This document shows, piece after piece, positions 7,398-49,675 of a DNA stretch of 64,000 bases. The DNA is taken from contig NZ_VJYB01000001.1 in assembly GCF_030400225.1 (NCBI RefSeq), positions 372,001-436,000 on the forward strand. The letters run 5' to 3'. A model generated the notes under the pieces. It was not told where the DNA came from and searched no databases. It was given only the letters and a program-made list of their open reading frames with translations. The position numbers and the translations under genes were made by a program. The stretch is from Lactobacillus sp. UCMA15818. Its GTDB lineage: Bacteria; Bacillota; Bacilli; Lactobacillales; Lactobacillaceae. Position 1 is the first letter of the stretch. Every line of letters starts with the position of its first letter.

Positions 7398-8573
7398 TCA
7401 AATCTTTCCCTTTCGATTCCGCTTTTGGTTAATCGAAATATTTATTACTATTCCTAATGCAAGAGATAAAACAATCATACTTGAACCACCATAAGATACA
7501 AATGGGAATGTAACACCTGTAATTGGCAGCAATCCATTAACTGCGCCGACATTGAATAGAGTTTCGATTCCCATAAAAGTTCCAATTCCATAACAAATCA
7601 TTGTTTCGTATGGCCTACTTGCTCTAATTCCAATTAAAAAAATTCGCAAAACAATCCAAGTAATTAGCAGCAGTACAACCATAACACCAACTGCCCCAAG
7701 CTCCTCACTAATAATTGCTATGATAAAATCTGTATACGGCTCAGGTAAATATCCTCTTTTTTGCACACTATTACCAAGCCCAACACCGAACAAACCACCA
7801 TTACTTATCGCATAGTAAGAATTAATCAATTGCTGCCCGCTTGTTGATGAAACATTAAAGGGATTATAGAATGCTGTTAGTCTAGCATACATATACTCAA
7901 TCTTTGTTCCTTTGAGGGGCGCGGGATCCCAAAAACGCAAGAGTTGAACTACTATAATTATTGAACCCAATATTCCAGACAAGCATAGTAGCGACTTACG
8001 ATAATCTTTTCCACTCGCATAGTACATTACCAAAGTAATGAATGCATTGATTGAAAAACCTCCTAAATCTGGTTCGATTAAAACAAGAATCAACAGTATT
8101 GACACTAATATAACTGGTTTCCAATTAGGCTTACTAATCAATGTACCCATTGAGTTTGAGTGTTCACGGTTAAAAGTAATTTGTGCCATAAAAAGAACGA
8201 GGTACAGTTTGCAAAGCTCAGCCGGCTGAAAACTAAATAATTTCAAATTGATCCAACCGTTAGCTCCATTGACTGCAGTAGTAAAAAACTTAGCATACAA
8301 CAATAGTACTACCATTACAAAAAAACCAATTATTATAAAGTTGCGGTGAGCCAATTTGATGGTCGGAATCATTATTGAAAAAAAGACACAGCCTAATCCT
8401 ATCACAACATAAAGCAACTGCTTCATTAGGTACGTATTAGTTGCCGCCCCCGCATATGAGAGGTTTATTGAACTGGCAGAATACACCATAACTGCACCAA
8501 TACAACATAAAATTATGTAAGGTACAAATAAATAAAAATCGAAATACCTCATCTTATCTCTAAATTTTTTCAT
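7398..8573 (-). CDS. ftsW: septal peptidoglycan glycosyltransferase FtsW (SEDS family)
   Basis: Polymerises lipid II into glycan strands at the septum, working with a class B penicillin-binding protein. The 391-residue protein has about ten membrane segments, the conserved stretch NGWINLKLFSFQPAEL (about residues 106-120) and the EPDLG motif with the catalytic aspartate at about 169. The ATG at 8573 is 12 bases past the ylaN stop; an internal ATG seven codons on is an alternative start. It lies outside the dcw cluster, in the ylaN-ftsW-pycA arrangement of Bacillus. Confidence 0.94.
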   Translation of the reverse strand: MKKFRDKMRYFDFYLFVPYIILCCIGAVMVYSASSINLSYAGAATNTYLMKQLLYVVIGLGCVFFSIMIPTIKLAHRNFIIIGFFVMVVLLLYAKFFTTAVNGANGWINLKLFSFQPAELCKLYLVLFMAQITFNREHSNSMGTLISKPNWKPVILVSILLILVLIEPDLGGFSINAFITLVMYYASGKDYRKSLLCLSGILGSIIIVVQLLRFWDPAPLKGTKIEYMYARLTAFYNPFNVSSTSGQQLINSYYAISNGGLFGVGLGNSVQKRGYLPEPYTDFIIAIISEELGAVGVMVVLLLITWIVLRIFLIGIRASRPYETMICYGIGTFMGIETLFNVGAVNGLLPITGVTFPFVSYGGSSMIVLSLALGIVINISINQKRNRKGKI

Positions 8574-8585
8574 GGCAATCAGAAC

Positions 8586-8861
8586 CTATTCATCCTCTCC
8601 CACTGAAATATAAATGCTTGAAAGCAGGTGTTCTAAGTCCTGAATCATTTGCTGAGCCTCATTCATGGTTATCAGGCCACAACGCTCGGCCAAGTGCACT
8701 TCTTTTGAAAAACCAAAAAGCTGTGTATCTGCAACTTCTTCAAAAGCGGGGCACTGAGACAAACATAATAAGTTCCGCTGTTTATCTAATAACACCCGAA
8801 TTTTCTCAGAATCAGCTTGCAGAATTTCCAACATTTCTTGTCTTGATACAAACTCCTGCAC
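8586..8861 (-). CDS. ylaN: YlaN family protein (DUF1507)
   Basis: A 91-residue protein of the YlaN/UPF0358 family, identified from its length, the block QCPAFEEVADTQLFGFSKEV and its place before ftsW. In Bacillus and Staphylococcus YlaN is linked to iron homeostasis through Fur; that role is taken from the family. I start it at the GTG at 8861, which lies eight bases after AAAGGGGG. The frame can be opened further upstream to 8999, but those residues do not resemble the family and cover the promoter. Confidence 0.88.
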   Translation of the reverse strand: MQEFVSRQEMLEILQADSEKIRVLLDKQRNLLCLSQCPAFEEVADTQLFGFSKEVHLAERCGLITMNEAQQMIQDLEHLLSSIYISVGEDE

Positions 8862-8891
8862 TGTTACTGCCCCCTTTCTAAATATACGGTA

Positions 8892-8920
8892 ATTATAGCA
8901 TACTAGTTTTTTTCTTGAAA
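8892..8920 (-). promoter_or_regulatory. promoter for ylaN-ftsW-pycA operon
   Basis: On the minus strand an extended -10 (TGCTATAAT, 8892-8900) lies 17 bases after TTTCAA (8915-8920). The expected start point is about 25 bases before the ylaN ribosome site. The -35 is weak, but the TG extension compensates. Confidence 0.55.
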
Positions 8921-9144
8921 TATACCATCGTGGACTTAAGTGCCAATTATAATGTCTGTCCTTGTAGTTTATTATGTAACCAAAATTCGTATTTTTCAAT
9001 TGATTTATATCGAAAAAGCAATTATTTTCTCCAGTTTACGAACTCTATTATTTTTTTGGAGCTATTTATAAAATAAAAAGAAACTTTTTTTAATTCTTGC
9101 AGTCATTAATAACCAGAGATATTAAATTTTTGCCTAACAAAAAG

Positions 9145-9182
9145 TTCTAATATTAACTGATTTTCACCAATTAATACCAGAA
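9145..9182 (-). terminator. probable typA terminator hairpin
   Basis: Imperfect inverted repeat with TTCT/AGAA and TATTAA/TTAATA arms. On the minus strand it runs into ACTTTTTG, so it can stop transcription from typA. It closely resembles the hairpin at 48275-48310, and both precede a copy of the dispersed palindromic element. The 442-base gap between ylaN and typA holds only this hairpin, that element and the ylaN promoter. Confidence 0.5.
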
Positions 9183-9216
9183 CTAATCTTAGATTGTTTA
9201 TTTATTACGAACAAAT

Positions 9217-9286
9217 GTGTTTCATAAATCAAAATTTTCCGTCTAATTTAGCGTTAGTACTCAAATTTTCCCGACTTATGTTACAC
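9217..9286. repeat. dispersed palindromic element, copy A (lacks central hairpin)
   Basis: Starts with GTGTTTCATAAATC and ends with GACTTATGTTACAC, an inverted pair with few mismatches. The inner stem seen in copies C and D is missing, so this copy is about 70 bases. It shares the run TTCCGTCTAA with all other copies, and AGTACTCAAATTTTCCCGAC with copy D. Confidence 0.75.
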
Positions 9287-9303
9287 TTACATCTCTTTTT
9301 TAA

Positions 9304-11151
9304 TTAGTCTTTACGCGTAGCAATCTTCTTTTGTTTTGCAACTTTTTCACGGCTATTCGTCTCAAGAATTCTCTTACGTAAACGAATGCTTTCCGGTGTA
9401 ATCTCCAACAATTCATCTTCGTTCAAGAATTCAAGTGATTCTTCTAGAGTAAAGTGTGTTGGTTTCTTAATCGAAGCAGTCTGATCCTTATTAGAGGAAC
9501 GAACATTAGTCATGTTCTTACCCTTCGTAACATTAACAGAAATATCGCGCTCACGTGAACTTGCACCAACAATCATGCCTTCATAGATTTCAGTTCCTGG
9601 ATCAACAAAAATCGTTCCACGATCCTCAACTCCCATAACAGCATAAGTTGTAACTTTCCCACGATTAATCGACACCAAAGCTCCATTACGACGACCAGGT
9701 TCCCAGTTACGAATAACAGGCTTGTACTCTGAGAAAGTATGATTAAAAATACCATAACCACGTGTCATTGAAAGAAATTGTGAGTCATATCCAATCAATC
9801 CACGAGTAGGTGCTGAGAACGTCAATCGAGTTTGACCGTTGGCATTTGTTTCCATATTGGACATTTCACCCTTACGTTGTGCTAACGAATCAATAACTGC
9901 TCCTGAATATTCATCTGGTGTATCAATAATAACATTTTCGTATGGTTCACATGTTTGACCATCAAAGTCGCGATAAATAACTTGTGGACGTGAAACAGCA
10001 AGTTCAAATCCTTCACGGCGCAATGTTTCAATTAAAATTGAAAGATGAAGTTCCCCACGACCCGAAACGACCCAAGCATCCGGTGAATCAGTGTCTTCAA
10101 CACGTAAGGAAACATCTGTATGCAATTGCATCTTAAGACGATCTTCCAACTTACGAGCAGTAACAAATTTTCCTTCATTACCAACAAATGGAGAATCGTT
10201 AGTCCTGAATGTCATCTGCAAAGTAGGTGGATCAATCCGCAAAACAGGTAACGCTTCAGGCGTGTCTACTGGACATACTGTTTCACCAACGAAAATATCT
10301 TCCATCCCGGAAATTGCAATTAAATCTCCTGCTTGAGCATCTTCAATTTCCAAGCGTTTTAATCCAAAGAAACCGAAAAGCTTGGTAACACGGAAGTTCT
10401 TCTTTGAACCATCAAGCTTCAAAACAGTAACCTGATCACCAACTTTAATTTTTCCACGGAATACACGACCAATTCCGATACGACCAACAAATTCATTATA
10501 ATCAAGCATTGAAACCTGGAATTGTAATGGTTCGTCAGAGTTGTCAACTGGTGCTGGAATTGTTTCAATAATCGAATTGAAAATCGGATCCATAGTATGT
10601 TCTTGTGTTGCTATATCAGAATCCAACGAAGATGTTCCATTAACTGCGGAAGCGTAAATAACTGGGAATTCCAATTGATCTTCCTCAGCACCCAATTCAA
10701 TAAACAAGTCTAAGACTTCATCAACGACCTCTTCAGGGCGAGCACCAGGACGGTCAATCTTGTTGATAACAACAATTGGCGTTAAATGTTGTTCTAATGC
10801 CTTTTTCAAAACAAATCGTGTCTGAGGCATTGTCCCTTCAAATGCATCAACAATTAACAATACACCATCAACCATTTTCATAATACGTTCAACTTCGCCA
10901 CCAAAATCGGCATGTCCTGGTGTATCTAAAATGTTAATTTGTTTGCCTTTAAACTTAACGGCAGTGTTCTTAGAAAGGATTGTGATTCCACGTTCCTTCT
11001 CAATTGCATTTGAATCAAGAGCACGATCATCGATCTCAGTATGTTCATCTAAAGTATCCGATTGCTTCAATAACTCATTAACCAAAGTTGTTTTGCCATG
11101 ATCAACATGGGCAATAATAGCAACGTTACGGATATCATCACGTGTTTTCAA
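9304..11151 (-). CDS. typA: translational GTPase TypA/BipA
   Basis: A ribosome-binding GTPase of the elongation factor family that helps 50S subunit assembly and growth under stress. The 615-residue protein has the G1 motif AHVDHGKTT (14-22), DTPGH (G3) and NKID (G4), then domain II, the EF-G-like domains and the basic C-terminal TypA domain. The start is a TTG at 11151, about ten bases after GAAGGGA; no ATG fits. Upstream is the suhB terminator, so it is its own transcription unit. The place between yktC/suhB and ylaN agrees with Bacillus. Confidence 0.96.
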   Translation of the reverse strand: MKTRDDIRNVAIIAHVDHGKTTLVNELLKQSDTLDEHTEIDDRALDSNAIEKERGITILSKNTAVKFKGKQINILDTPGHADFGGEVERIMKMVDGVLLIVDAFEGTMPQTRFVLKKALEQHLTPIVVINKIDRPGARPEEVVDEVLDLFIELGAEEDQLEFPVIYASAVNGTSSLDSDIATQEHTMDPIFNSIIETIPAPVDNSDEPLQFQVSMLDYNEFVGRIGIGRVFRGKIKVGDQVTVLKLDGSKKNFRVTKLFGFFGLKRLEIEDAQAGDLIAISGMEDIFVGETVCPVDTPEALPVLRIDPPTLQMTFRTNDSPFVGNEGKFVTARKLEDRLKMQLHTDVSLRVEDTDSPDAWVVSGRGELHLSILIETLRREGFELAVSRPQVIYRDFDGQTCEPYENVIIDTPDEYSGAVIDSLAQRKGEMSNMETNANGQTRLTFSAPTRGLIGYDSQFLSMTRGYGIFNHTFSEYKPVIRNWEPGRRNGALVSINRGKVTTYAVMGVEDRGTIFVDPGTEIYEGMIVGASSRERDISVNVTKGKNMTNVRSSNKDQTASIKKPTHFTLEESLEFLNEDELLEITPESIRLRKRILETNSREKVAKQKKIATRKD

Positions 11152-47464: not shown

Positions 47465-47785
47465 ATGTATACATTAGAAGTAATTAAGCAACTTGCTAAA
47501 GAAAGAAATATTTCCGTTTATGAACTTGAAGAAATATTAGGGTTTGGAAGAAATACGATTTATCAATGGTCACATCGAACACCATCTATTGAGCGCGTCA
47601 AAAAAGTCGCTGATTATTTTGGGGTTTCCTTAGATTACTTAACTGGTCGAAGTTCTAAAAAAGATATAAGCAAAATTGATTTAGCAACTGTTCCCGATGG
47701 CGTACTTACATTTGAAGGGAAAGAAATTCCTGAAGACGAACTTGAAATAATTCGTCATCTATTGCGAAACAAGCCTTCAAAATAA
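47465..47785 (+). CDS. XRE family repressor (CI/ImmR-like)
   Basis: 106 residues with an N-terminal XRE helix-turn-helix (about 5-60, SVYELEEILGFGRNTIYQW) ending in the typical FGVSLDYLTGR, then a short C-terminal part. GGGAG lies before the ATG. The next gene encodes an ImmA-type protease, the usual partner that cleaves such repressors. It probably binds the palindromes upstream and represses itself and the divergent HTH gene. Confidence 0.85.
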   Translation: MYTLEVIKQLAKERNISVYELEEILGFGRNTIYQWSHRTPSIERVKKVADYFGVSLDYLTGRSSKKDISKIDLATVPDGVLTFEGKEIPEDELEIIRHLLRNKPSK

Positions 47786-47802
47786 GCGAGGTGTGTAGCC
47801 CA

Positions 47803-48201
47803 TTGGAGGAATTATTAAAATTAGCAAAAAAAGAGCATATTAAAATTATTTGGACGCAGGAACTTGCTCCCACAACTCCACCCGTTGCTATTTATAATCT
47901 AAGAAGTATTATCATGAATTCTAATTGGCATAACCCCAATCAATTCATTTTTCAGTTGGCACATGAATTAGCTCATTTAATTTATGGGGATCCACTTGAT
48001 CTCTATTTATATAATCAAACCCCTGCACAAAAATTTAAAATTGAGTCAAAAATTAATGATTATGCGTTGCAAATTATATTTAATTTGTATAATGAAATCC
48101 CCTACAGTGAGATCAACATTGTATCCTTTATGCAAAAATATGAGATTCCGGCGCATTTAGAAAATCGCGTCCGTTTCTTGATTGGCGAGAGTGTGTTGTA
48201 A
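47803..48201 (+). CDS. ImmA/IrrE family metallopeptidase
   Basis: 132 residues with the zinc motif HELAH in QLAHELAHLIYGD. ImmA proteins cut the cognate repressor to induce a mobile element. I start at the TTG at 47803, nine bases after GAGGTG; an earlier in-frame GTG at 47791 overlaps that site. It forms a two-gene unit with the XRE gene and is followed by a terminator hairpin at 48275. Confidence 0.85.
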   Translation: MEELLKLAKKEHIKIIWTQELAPTTPPVAIYNLRSIIMNSNWHNPNQFIFQLAHELAHLIYGDPLDLYLYNQTPAQKFKIESKINDYALQIIFNLYNEIPYSEINIVSFMQKYEIPAHLENRVRFLIGESVL

Positions 48202-48437: not shown

Positions 48438-48509
48438 GCCTATCTATATTAGTAATTTGTGTTAATATTCAAGCTCTCTTACTTTATAGCACAATTCCTT
48501 TTACACGTA

Positions 48510-48728
48510 TTAACGACGTCTTTCAGGAATACGAGCTGCCTTACCATGTAATGCACGAACACAACATAGGTATTTAGTTGATACTCTTTTTATATTCAGA
48601 TAATTATCTCTTCCTATTATATAACTTAAGTGATGTGTGTTTAGCATTCGCTTGATTTTCACATCATATTCATATTTTTGCCCCTTATTTGCCCCTTTTT
48701 CTTTATGATTGTATTTTATCTTATTTCT
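48510..48728 (-). other. open frame with integrase-tail-like GANKGQ; possible prophage end
   Basis: A 72-codon frame on the minus strand, open from 48728 to a stop at 48510, without a ribosome site. At 48678-48695 it reads GANKGQ, within a double GGGGCAAA run, which resembles the C-terminal tails of some phage integrases of Lactobacillales. It lies where the chromosome-prophage junction is expected (between the immunity module and the prophage cargo genes). It could be an att region or the last piece of a lost integrase gene. Confidence 0.25.
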
Positions 48729-48824
48729 CTATCGTTGCTATGCCATCTTTGGTCGTTAAAGCAGATGAACTTAATCGTGAAGTTTGTCTGCTTTTTTTAT
48801 TTCTAAAAAAGTTTGATTTTCCTA

Positions 48825-48853
48825 TTGACGTATCTATAAAGATACGGTATTAT
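48825..48853 (+). promoter_or_regulatory. promoter with palindromic operator for prophage cargo genes
   Basis: TTGACG (48825-48830) and TATTAT (48848-48853), 17 bases apart. The spacer contains CGTATCTATAAAGATACG (48829-48846), a palindrome with seven-base arms CGTATCT/AGATACG. A repressor bound here would block the promoter fully. Confidence 0.8.
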
Positions 48854-48896
48854 ATAAACATAGAAAGAAATCCAAAAAATAAAGGGGATAATAAAT

Positions 48897-49118
48897 ATGA
48901 TTAATGCAAACTTTGGAGATTATGATTTAGTACAGGTATCAGAGAACGAGTTCAAGAAAGTATTCCATTCAAACGTTCAAGGTAAAAATGAAACATTCAC
49001 GATTCTTAGCAAGGATTTAGACGCATTCAAAGCTACCGTTAAGGAGATCGAAGAAACAGAAGATACAGATACTAAATTCAATGATATTGACTATATTGAA
49101 CGTGAGTATCTAATCTAA
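48897..49118 (+). CDS. prophage cargo protein of unknown function (73 residues)
   Basis: A small acidic protein, rich in Asp and Glu in its second half (EIEETEDTDTK), without membrane segments or known motifs. AAAGGGG precedes the ATG. It is first in a two-gene unit at the lysis end of the prophage, opposite in direction to the late genes and behind an operator-controlled promoter. That position suggests a gene expressed in the lysogen. I do not recognise its family. Confidence 0.7.
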   Translation: MINANFGDYDLVQVSENEFKKVFHSNVQGKNETFTILSKDLDAFKATVKEIEETEDTDTKFNDIDYIEREYLI

Positions 49119-49165
49119 TTTGAACTTTTAGGGCATTAAGCCCTATTTGTGTTTATGGAGGCAAA

Positions 49166-49639
49166 ATGGAAAATATCATAGATCTATCAAAAATTAAGAA
49201 GCTGCTAGATAGCGATATATCTGCTTATGCTATTTCAGAAGAAACTGGTTTAACTCGTGCTATGATTAATCGCTACCGAAAAAATGAATCAAAATTAGAA
49301 AACATGACTATCAAAGTCGCTTTAAAACTGCAGAAATGCTATGATGAGAAATTTAATATGGGATTAATTGGAGATAGTGGACAAAACATTAGCTATGATT
49401 CAGAAGAACTCATTGCTGAGCTAAAAGAAGACATCACAGATTTTGGAGACTTTGAGTGCTGGGCGTGGATTAAAAAAATTGACGGTGTAAAGATATATAC
49501 GAACTACGACTTCAAAGATGGCGCTACACAATTAACAAAAGACGAGGTTAAGACTGCACACGAAAATGGAGAACAATTCGAGATACTGAAAGCTAAGCAT
49601 TTACTGGAACTGTTAGAGAAACAGAATGAAATTTTGTAA
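49166..49639 (+). CDS. HTH-containing prophage cargo protein (157 residues)
   Basis: The N-terminal 60 residues look like a helix-turn-helix (DISAYAISEETGLTRAMINRYR); the C-terminal 90 residues form an acidic domain without a known match (DFGDFECWAWIKKIDGVKIY). GGAGG lies before the ATG. It may bind the operator at 48829-48846 and control its own unit, or be one half of a toxin-antitoxin or exclusion pair with the gene before it. A strong terminator follows. Confidence 0.7.
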   Translation: MENIIDLSKIKKLLDSDISAYAISEETGLTRAMINRYRKNESKLENMTIKVALKLQKCYDEKFNMGLIGDSGQNISYDSEELIAELKEDITDFGDFECWAWIKKIDGVKIYTNYDFKDGATQLTKDEVKTAHENGEQFEILKAKHLLELLEKQNEIL

Positions 49640-49641
49640 AC

Positions 49642-49675
49642 AAAAAAGCCCCACTCAATTAAGAGTGAGGCTTTT
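49642..49675. terminator. bidirectional terminator between cargo and late genes
   Basis: AAAAGCCCCACTC / GAGTGAGGCTTTT stem with a short loop, between convergent units. It ends both the plus-strand cargo genes and the minus-strand late transcripts. Confidence 0.9.

Follow-up and report, generated by a model that had tools for sequence, protein, structure and literature searches.

What use is a small operon that a prophage keeps at its very edge, read against the late genes and behind a promoter of its own? The locus studied here raises this question with two genes, for which the original prediction had proposed superinfection exclusion, anti-phage defence or a toxin-antitoxin function. Its description of the layout held: both open reading frames, for an acidic 73-residue protein (48897-49118) and for a 157-residue HTH protein (49166-49639), lie where it had placed them, each with an ATG start and a ribosome-binding site; the endolysin, the holin-like protein and the late genes are on the other strand, in agreement with a place at the lysis end; and the promoter spacer does hold an 18-base palindrome. 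As for the function, the evidence points to counter-defence instead of the roles as they had been worded.

The unit and its place in the prophage

The host genome measures 2.58 Mb and carries the prophage, 39 kb long, at the 3' end of rplS. In the coordinates of the window (the whole stretch of DNA that was analysed, 64 kb), the limits of the prophage were confirmed by a direct repeat of 32 + 17 identical bases, interrupted by a single mismatch, at 48508 and at 87518. The right copy lies at the 3' end of rplS and adjoins a tyrosine integrase, rplS and the integrase being named by Pfam; the left copy (48508..48557) is the att core that ends the prophage. With this core at 48508, the HTH and M78-peptidase genes at 47465-48201, a pair of the phage-repressor kind, fall outside the prophage and in host-side DNA; G006 (L088), another genome of the genus, has this pair in the corresponding place. 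To the right of the window, the large terminase subunit of the prophage has an intein-splicing match in its C-terminal part (L059:4439-6596; E 9.7e-10) and is adjoined by an HNH-like gene recognised by eye, and this region may represent an intein or a homing insertion. Here and below, the gene-product names Nramp, yfhO, rpmG and antirepressor, as well as those of some lysins, were given by reading the proteins by eye and are presumptive.

Inward from the left core, the unit sits between the core and the lysis genes, convergent with the late operon, which ends on the opposite strand with a holin-like protein, an endolysin and a DUF4417 protein. Its elements follow each other in this order: an intrinsic-terminator-like hairpin on the plus strand (48758..48794), conserved in a second genome of the genus (G007); a promoter (48825..48853, plus strand); the gene of the 73-residue protein on the plus strand; a weak hairpin that might be an attenuator (49129..49145, plus strand); the gene of the 157-residue protein, also on the plus strand; and, separating the unit from the convergent late operon, a terminator-like hairpin scored on the minus strand (49644..49675). 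Terminator-like hairpins were found at four sites, against 0.5 in shuffled sequences, and one of these four is the operator described below.

The promoter is of the sigma-70 type, TTGACG-17-TATTAT, with 10 of 12 hexamer bases matching, and is alike in G007 and in G008. Given that the promoter scan returned fewer promoter-like sites than the shuffles (2 vs 5.8), the hexamers are weak evidence and the conservation is the stronger point. Within the spacer lies a putative operator (48829..48846), the inverted repeat CGTATCT-N4-AGATACG (CGTATCTATAAAGATACG), 18 bases long with perfect arms of 7 bases and a centre of 4 bases. It is the sole match in the 64-kb window at up to two mismatches, with 0.11 expected and at least one match in 9 of 100 shuffles, and the host genome holds no second copy. 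In G007, both arms are kept and the centre is changed. Among 369 genomes of the family, TTGACGTATCT-N4-AGATACG occurs in three, namely the host (G000), G007 and G008, in one copy each and always between -35 and -10, and it is absent from the other 366; a control pattern had no match in the 369 genomes. Every occurrence is the promoter of an operon with a related HTH (at least 68% identical), even where the cargo differs, and a search of 14 genomes without the leading TTGA returned the same three. The autonomous and regulated two-gene cargo unit that had been predicted is borne out by this distribution.

The exact full promoter was absent from the viral contigs searched. A shorter operator pattern occurred in three of them, always in the identical stretch of sequence where a terminase-like gene (by eye) begins, and we regard these matches as chance because no relative of either protein is found there (tblastn best E 2.9). 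Neither the 157-residue protein nor the 73-residue protein nor A1, one of the profiles of the C-terminal domain (CTD) presented below, had confirmed relatives in the viral contigs.

The HTH domain and the control of the unit

Residues 1-61 of the 157-residue protein (49166..49348, plus strand) form an HTH of the AcrIIA15-NTD or Aca11 kind, a probable autorepressor. Compared with the PDB by phmmer, these residues matched the chain of the AcrIIA15 N-terminal domain (E 1.5e-4), the full AcrIIA15 chain (0.0015) and Aca11 (0.45); up to E 10, these were the only chains. The 69-residue HTH protein of G008 (79% identical) matched AcrIIA15 at 8.2e-8, Aca11 at 0.0067 and a phage immunity repressor at 0.038, and the 63-residue HTH protein of G003 matched AcrIIA15 at 4.3e-7 and Aca11 at 1.3e-4, the next E-value being 1.4. 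The original view that neither protein belongs to a known family is thus right for the 73-residue protein and does not apply to the HTH half of its partner.

In 397 genomes of the family, the best HTH relative outside G000, G007 and G008 is that of G005 (65% identity over the whole protein, 55% over the HTH), followed by relatives at 48% or less. The putative recognition helix reads TRA(M/V)INRYR in the three operator-bearing genomes G000, G007 and G008, EQDIILNYR in G005, which is without the operator, and SRNAILEMR in G003, where the promoter has only a degenerate repeat in the same place (by eye). In phage LFP01 of Limosilactobacillus fermentum, this helix reads SRQTIFNLR and the operon promoter carries other repeats (two TGTAAA-N6-TTTACA, alike at 16 of 18 positions). 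One of the two lies over the -35 and the other after the -10 (hexamers by eye; L116:4633-4772), upstream of the operon that encodes the HTH-CTD fusion. Because the operator goes with this HTH in three genomes and the recognition helix differs elsewhere, the HTH would be the part that reads the inverted repeat, and the predicted binding of the 157-residue protein to the operator is well supported. By analogy, the protein may dimerise on the repeat and repress its own promoter. In a report on AcrIIA15 (PMC10901769), two inverted repeats are described, one of them between -35 and -10, repression of its own promoter was measured, and Aca genes serve as markers for anti-CRISPR genes. Judged from the sequence, our unit is very likely a self-contained cargo operon with Aca-type autoregulation.

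The comparison with AcrIIA15 can be taken further. Like AcrIIA15, and like the fused Aca-Acr proteins AcrIIA13-14, the window protein combines an N-terminal HTH of the same sequence family with a C-terminal domain of effector size; as in AcrIIA15, the operon promoter has an inverted repeat between its -35 and -10 elements and the host has a type II-A system. Unlike in AcrIIA15, the operon starts with the 73-residue gene, the promoter has one repeat instead of two, and Cas9 inhibition is what we infer. Moreover, the CTD of the window protein shows no kinship in sequence with its counterpart in AcrIIA15 (phmmer aligns only the HTH, and a second stretch scores -1.0 bits), and for this reason we refuse to call the protein AcrIIA15 proper. 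Aca11 and the separate Aca autorepressors have a related HTH too, which stands alone as the last gene in the operons of G008 (69 residues) and G003 (63 residues); unlike Aca11, the window HTH is fused to another domain.

The wider HTH matches also include phage proteins of unknown function (phrog_1529; orf140b of Sfi21), as would be expected of an ordinary phage regulator that is accompanied by an accessory gene and has no anti-defence role. We consider this scarcely probable, in view of a unit that has its own promoter and terminators and is common to prophages at different att sites, and of an operator that has a single copy in the host genome. No homology to structural proteins or to proteins of replication, named beforehand as evidence against a cargo unit, turned up.

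Exchange of partners and the C-terminal domain

In G007, the same gene pair stands at the lysis end of a different prophage, near tRNA-Arg, so that the unit is common to prophages at different att sites. Between G000 and G007, the 73-residue gene shows 7 nucleotide changes in 74 codons with 1 residue replaced, the HTH part 55 nucleotide changes in 61 codons with 19 residues replaced, and the C-terminal part (73-157) 46 nucleotide changes in 85 codons with 11 residues replaced. In G008, the operon (L058:5857-7357) is read in the direction opposite to its prophage-like neighbours (by eye) and consists of three genes, for proteins of 137 and 293 residues and, last, for the 69-residue HTH protein; the 293-residue protein has sub-threshold AP2 and arm DNA-binding matches. 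Its promoter (TTGACGTATCTTTATAGATACGTTATAGT) carries identical operator arms at the corresponding position, and promoter and leader (72% over 95 bases) as well as the HTH gene (73% over 183 bases) resemble those of the window and frame a different cargo.

Single parts of the unit are found as well. G006:C61 (L048) holds two copies of the 73-residue family (70% and 43%) without the fused protein, and G005:C1 (L055) one fused protein (65%) without the 73-residue gene. These copies stand in runs of small genes, within elements that have a terminase, a portal and a ParA-like gene (the ParA of G006 by eye) and are probable phage-plasmids. Both runs are long and made of genes with their own ribosome-binding sites, and each looks like an island for counter-defence or early takeover. 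In G003, the lysis end of a prophage likewise has a convergent two-gene unit (L093:9927-10708), next to an endolysin-like gene at 8584-9816, that encodes a 196-residue protein of unknown kind and the 63-residue HTH protein of the AcrIIA15-NTD/Aca11 kind, a candidate acr-aca pair.

A toxin-antitoxin system, with one protein as toxin and the HTH protein as antitoxin and autorepressor, would share with our unit the small two-gene operon, the downstream HTH gene and the operator, and the G008 HTH does match the HigA-antitoxin model TIGR02607, below threshold (E 0.0037; 17.1 bits vs a cut-off of 47.7). We rank this explanation low, as very unlikely, because the pair is not kept together: the 73-residue family occurs alone in G006, the fused protein alone in G005 and the HTH with other cargo in G008. 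Furthermore, both window proteins are acidic and neither matches a Pfam or NCBIfam model above its cut-off, toxin and antitoxin families included. The same Aca-type control might also serve another kind of counter-defence or of competition between phages, such as anti-restriction or phage exclusion. The two 73-residue copies in the small-gene run of G006:C61 and the 157-type gene in the like run of G005:C1 would suit such a role, and other kinds of genes may use Aca-type control. No PADLOC match was obtained (the PADLOC models represent defence, not counter-defence), and in the host, the system directed at this phage lineage is a Cas9 system; on these grounds, we think this possibility decidedly unlikely.

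The 73-residue protein (pI 4.33, net charge -9) belongs to no Pfam, NCBIfam or PADLOC family, and its best E in PHROGs was 0.09. The profile of its family (A2) reached a best E of 0.69 against the PDB, no relatives were found among the plasmids and phages searched, and its structure model (pLDDT 65.5) had no PDB fold match below E 3.6. As the first gene behind the regulated promoter, it encodes a candidate second inhibitor and nothing beyond that; with less weight than for its partner, we would call it probably a co-regulated second counter-defence protein. A member of the family of about 78 residues is present in the chromosome of five genomes of another genus (g23; L049, L050, L051, L052 and L053), always beside a yfhO-like gene; in four of the five, an rpmG-like gene flanks it on the far side (in the fifth, the contig ends there). 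Identity to these chromosomal relatives is 27-32% in the four that were aligned, and they represent an uncharacterised host family.

Residues 62-157 of the second protein (49349..49639 with the stop codon, plus strand) form the acidic CTD (pI 4.5), the candidate Cas9 inhibitor. This is a domain in its own right, since in the genus it is also a separate gene of about 92 residues. Lone CTD copies stand beside an Nramp-like gene in G000, in G005 (with an insertion element between) and in G006; in G000:C12, two neutral or basic copies lie about 2.6 kb apart around this gene (L056:4961-5239 and 7790-8065). Another lone copy in G006 adjoins the att core sequence of the window and a lysin fragment, and one in G002 adjoins a lysin fragment (lysins by eye). 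G022, from another genus, has two CTD relatives: one closes a run of four small genes facing a prophage lysin (by eye), and the other comes after a gene of the phrog_2277 type. Phage phiJB has a weak relative (E 0.03) that likewise comes after a phrog_2277 gene, its place being between the muramidase and the integrase. At two unrelated places (L086:8422-9101 and L085:3828-4264), CTD relatives overlap the end of the phrog_2277 gene by a few bases, a recurrent pairing. In phage LFP01, the complete HTH-CTD fusion is present (32% identical), with the endolysin on one side and the integrase on the other. Being fused, paired or alone, often at the lysis ends of prophages, and accompanied by different regulators, the CTD seems to be a mobile part. 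The window protein resembles the fused Aca-Acr proteins, its HTH (1-61) being joined to a domain that exists alone elsewhere and would act as the effector. Among 13 CTD copies, five are acidic, with net charges of -8 to -17 (three fused copies, the copy of the four-gene run in G022 and that of phiJB); the other eight have net charges of 0 to +6 and include the two beside lysin fragments (G006, G002) and the second G022 copy.

The CTD members scanned had no Pfam or NCBIfam family over the cut-off. Three profiles were compared with the PDB: A1 (11 rows), A6 (13 rows) and A7 (11 more diverse rows, leaving out five of the A1 rows). With A7, the first match was 23aa, annotated as "Anti-CRISPR protein", at a marginal E of 0.0076 (composition bias 7.3 bits), over positions 9-91 of 92, and the next had an E of 0.15. 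A6 also placed 23aa first (E 0.13), and A1 listed a single unrelated chain, 6f3t (E 0.83), and not 23aa. Alone, the phiJB protein matched 23aa at E 0.48, with human proteins scoring alike, and the G022 protein had no match listed in the PDB. The match of 23aa (108 residues) to the CTD profile is marginal and covers nearly the whole domain; 23aa differs from the window protein in that its aligned part holds no HTH. Up to E 10, the CTD profiles matched neither AcrIIA15 nor any paratox chain in the PDB.

The AlphaFold2 model of the 157-residue protein was built on an alignment of two rows. Its pLDDT is below 50 over residues 1-76, which makes the HTH part unreliable, and block means range from 58 to 86 from residue 81 on. 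Compared with this moderate-confidence CTD model, the best of 775 aligned chains is paratox, as 6cka (Z 5.6; 62 of 68 residues, rmsd 3.0) and 7n10 (Z 5.2); the latter is also first in Foldseek, at E 1.0. Z-scores below 8 may reflect a common or chance arrangement. AcrIIA15, Aca11 and 23aa are absent among the fold matches listed, from which nothing follows with the HTH unmodelled, and the viral fold library searched with the structure model gave nothing at E 0.001 (best E 0.026, for an uncharacterised protein).

The fold matches raise the possibility that the acidic CTD has the paratox fold and blocks an HTH-type regulator of the host, for DNA uptake or defence genes, the fused HTH being its own repressor. 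Paratox holds the two best places among the 775 aligned chains; according to PMC8383118, its gene, too, lies at the 3' end of prophages and the protein works through an electronegative surface, two features in common with the CTD. On the other hand, the Z-scores stay below 8 and the next fold match, at Z 4.5, is unrelated. Paratox differs from the window protein in lacking an HTH, in having ComR as its target and in being encoded next to a toxin gene, and no similarity between the two was seen in sequence. No toxin family was recognised beside the unit: the named neighbours are the DUF4417 protein and the endolysin, and the neighbours of 73 and 105 residues belong to no known family. Moreover, the HTH has its relatives in anti-CRISPR operons. 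We hold a paratox-like action to be unlikely.

The host Cas9 system and the proposed function

The host has an apparently intact type II-A system with a Cas9 of 1172 residues, for which the best PDB match is St1Cas9 (E 3.3e-244) and which carries the GLDIG and VDH motifs, together with Cas1, a Cas2-sized gene, a Csn2 of the St type and 12 spacers. For St1Cas9 itself, AcrIIA30 and AcrIIA31 are reported as inhibitors (PMC8934645). Of the 12 spacers of the host, spacer 11 of 12 in transcript order (spacer 2 in plus-strand order), matches the prophage at 83364-83393 in 29 of 30 positions, with TTACAA as 3' flank. The target is an antirepressor-like gene (by eye), and the mismatch is silent and, counted from the PAM side, falls on base six. 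The G007 and G005 arrays each have one spacer that matches the prophage at 30 of 30 positions. In targets with up to five mismatches in selected loci (not whole genomes), with duplicate loci merged, the 3' flank is NNRYAA in eight of nine distinct targets of the G000, G005 and G007 arrays, the exception being G007_sp1 (CAAAAA); the motif was derived from these same targets and is a description, not a test. For the G002 array, counted apart, one of five targets has this flank (sp25, with five mismatches). The prophage lineage is repeatedly sampled by this type of CRISPR system, and the lysogen lives with a near-perfect self-match. A mismatch in the seed can suffice for escape, and the self-match is therefore no proof of inhibition.

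This type of Cas9 is present in four of 14 genomes of the genus (G000, G002, G005 and G007), and the CTD is present in these four and in G006, where no Cas9 was found. Accordingly, this Cas9 accompanies the CTD in four of five genomes and is found in none of the nine genomes without it (Fisher p 0.005; 14 genomes, kinship uncorrected). An HNH match in G006, initially among the Cas9 matches, proved to be a phage HNH gene and was dropped from this count.

Taken together, three observations favour counter-defence, most probably of the anti-CRISPR type: the relatives of the HTH, the St1Cas9-like system of the host with its anti-prophage spacer, and the way in which partners are exchanged. We infer that the unit is probably a counter-defence operon directed specifically against Cas9, and it reads best as a unit of the fused Aca-Acr type in which the effector domain is new. 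Upon infection, the promoter would be free and both proteins would be made at once; the 157-residue protein, as a dimer formed through its HTH, would then bind the repeat between -35 and -10 and shut the promoter, and a low level of expression might persist in the lysogen. The acidic CTD would act as the effector, most likely by binding the St1Cas9-like Cas9 of the host, probably through DNA mimicry, and the block of Cas9 may protect both the phage and the prophage from the CRISPR array of their own host.

Some observations speak against this anti-Cas9 reading. The lone neutral or basic CTD relatives are ill-suited to DNA mimicry. Lone copies are present in all four genomes with this Cas9 (G000, G002, G005 and G007), some of them in plain chromosomal places, and this argues against free Cas9 inhibitors because such inhibitors should not sit there. 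The prophage may instead have escaped its spacer by mutation. G006 has the CTD although no Cas9 was found there, the 23aa match is marginal, and paratox, the best fold match, acts on a regulator and not on Cas9. Tentatively, the CTD might found a new family of proteins that share a paratox-like fold and inhibit St1-type Cas9; lactobacillus prophages and phages would carry it at the lysis end, fused to an Aca repressor, paired with another small gene or alone, some hosts keeping charge-changed chromosomal copies, perhaps as decoys or as the source; this broader proposal is doubtful. If it were true, the same small acidic fold would be used by phages against a competence regulator and against Cas9.

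Among the papers retrieved, no title or opening of an abstract described an anti-CRISPR of this genus. If the anti-Cas9 reading is right, the unit provides a candidate Cas9 inhibitor with its native target at hand, in a genus of food-related lactobacilli. The operator motif and the HTH marker lead to further candidates through guilt by association, as in the operons of G003, G008 and phage LFP01. Moreover, an effector domain that occurs in fused, paired and lone forms would allow the origin of Aca-Acr fusions to be studied, and its chromosomal copies raise the question of the use that hosts make of such domains.
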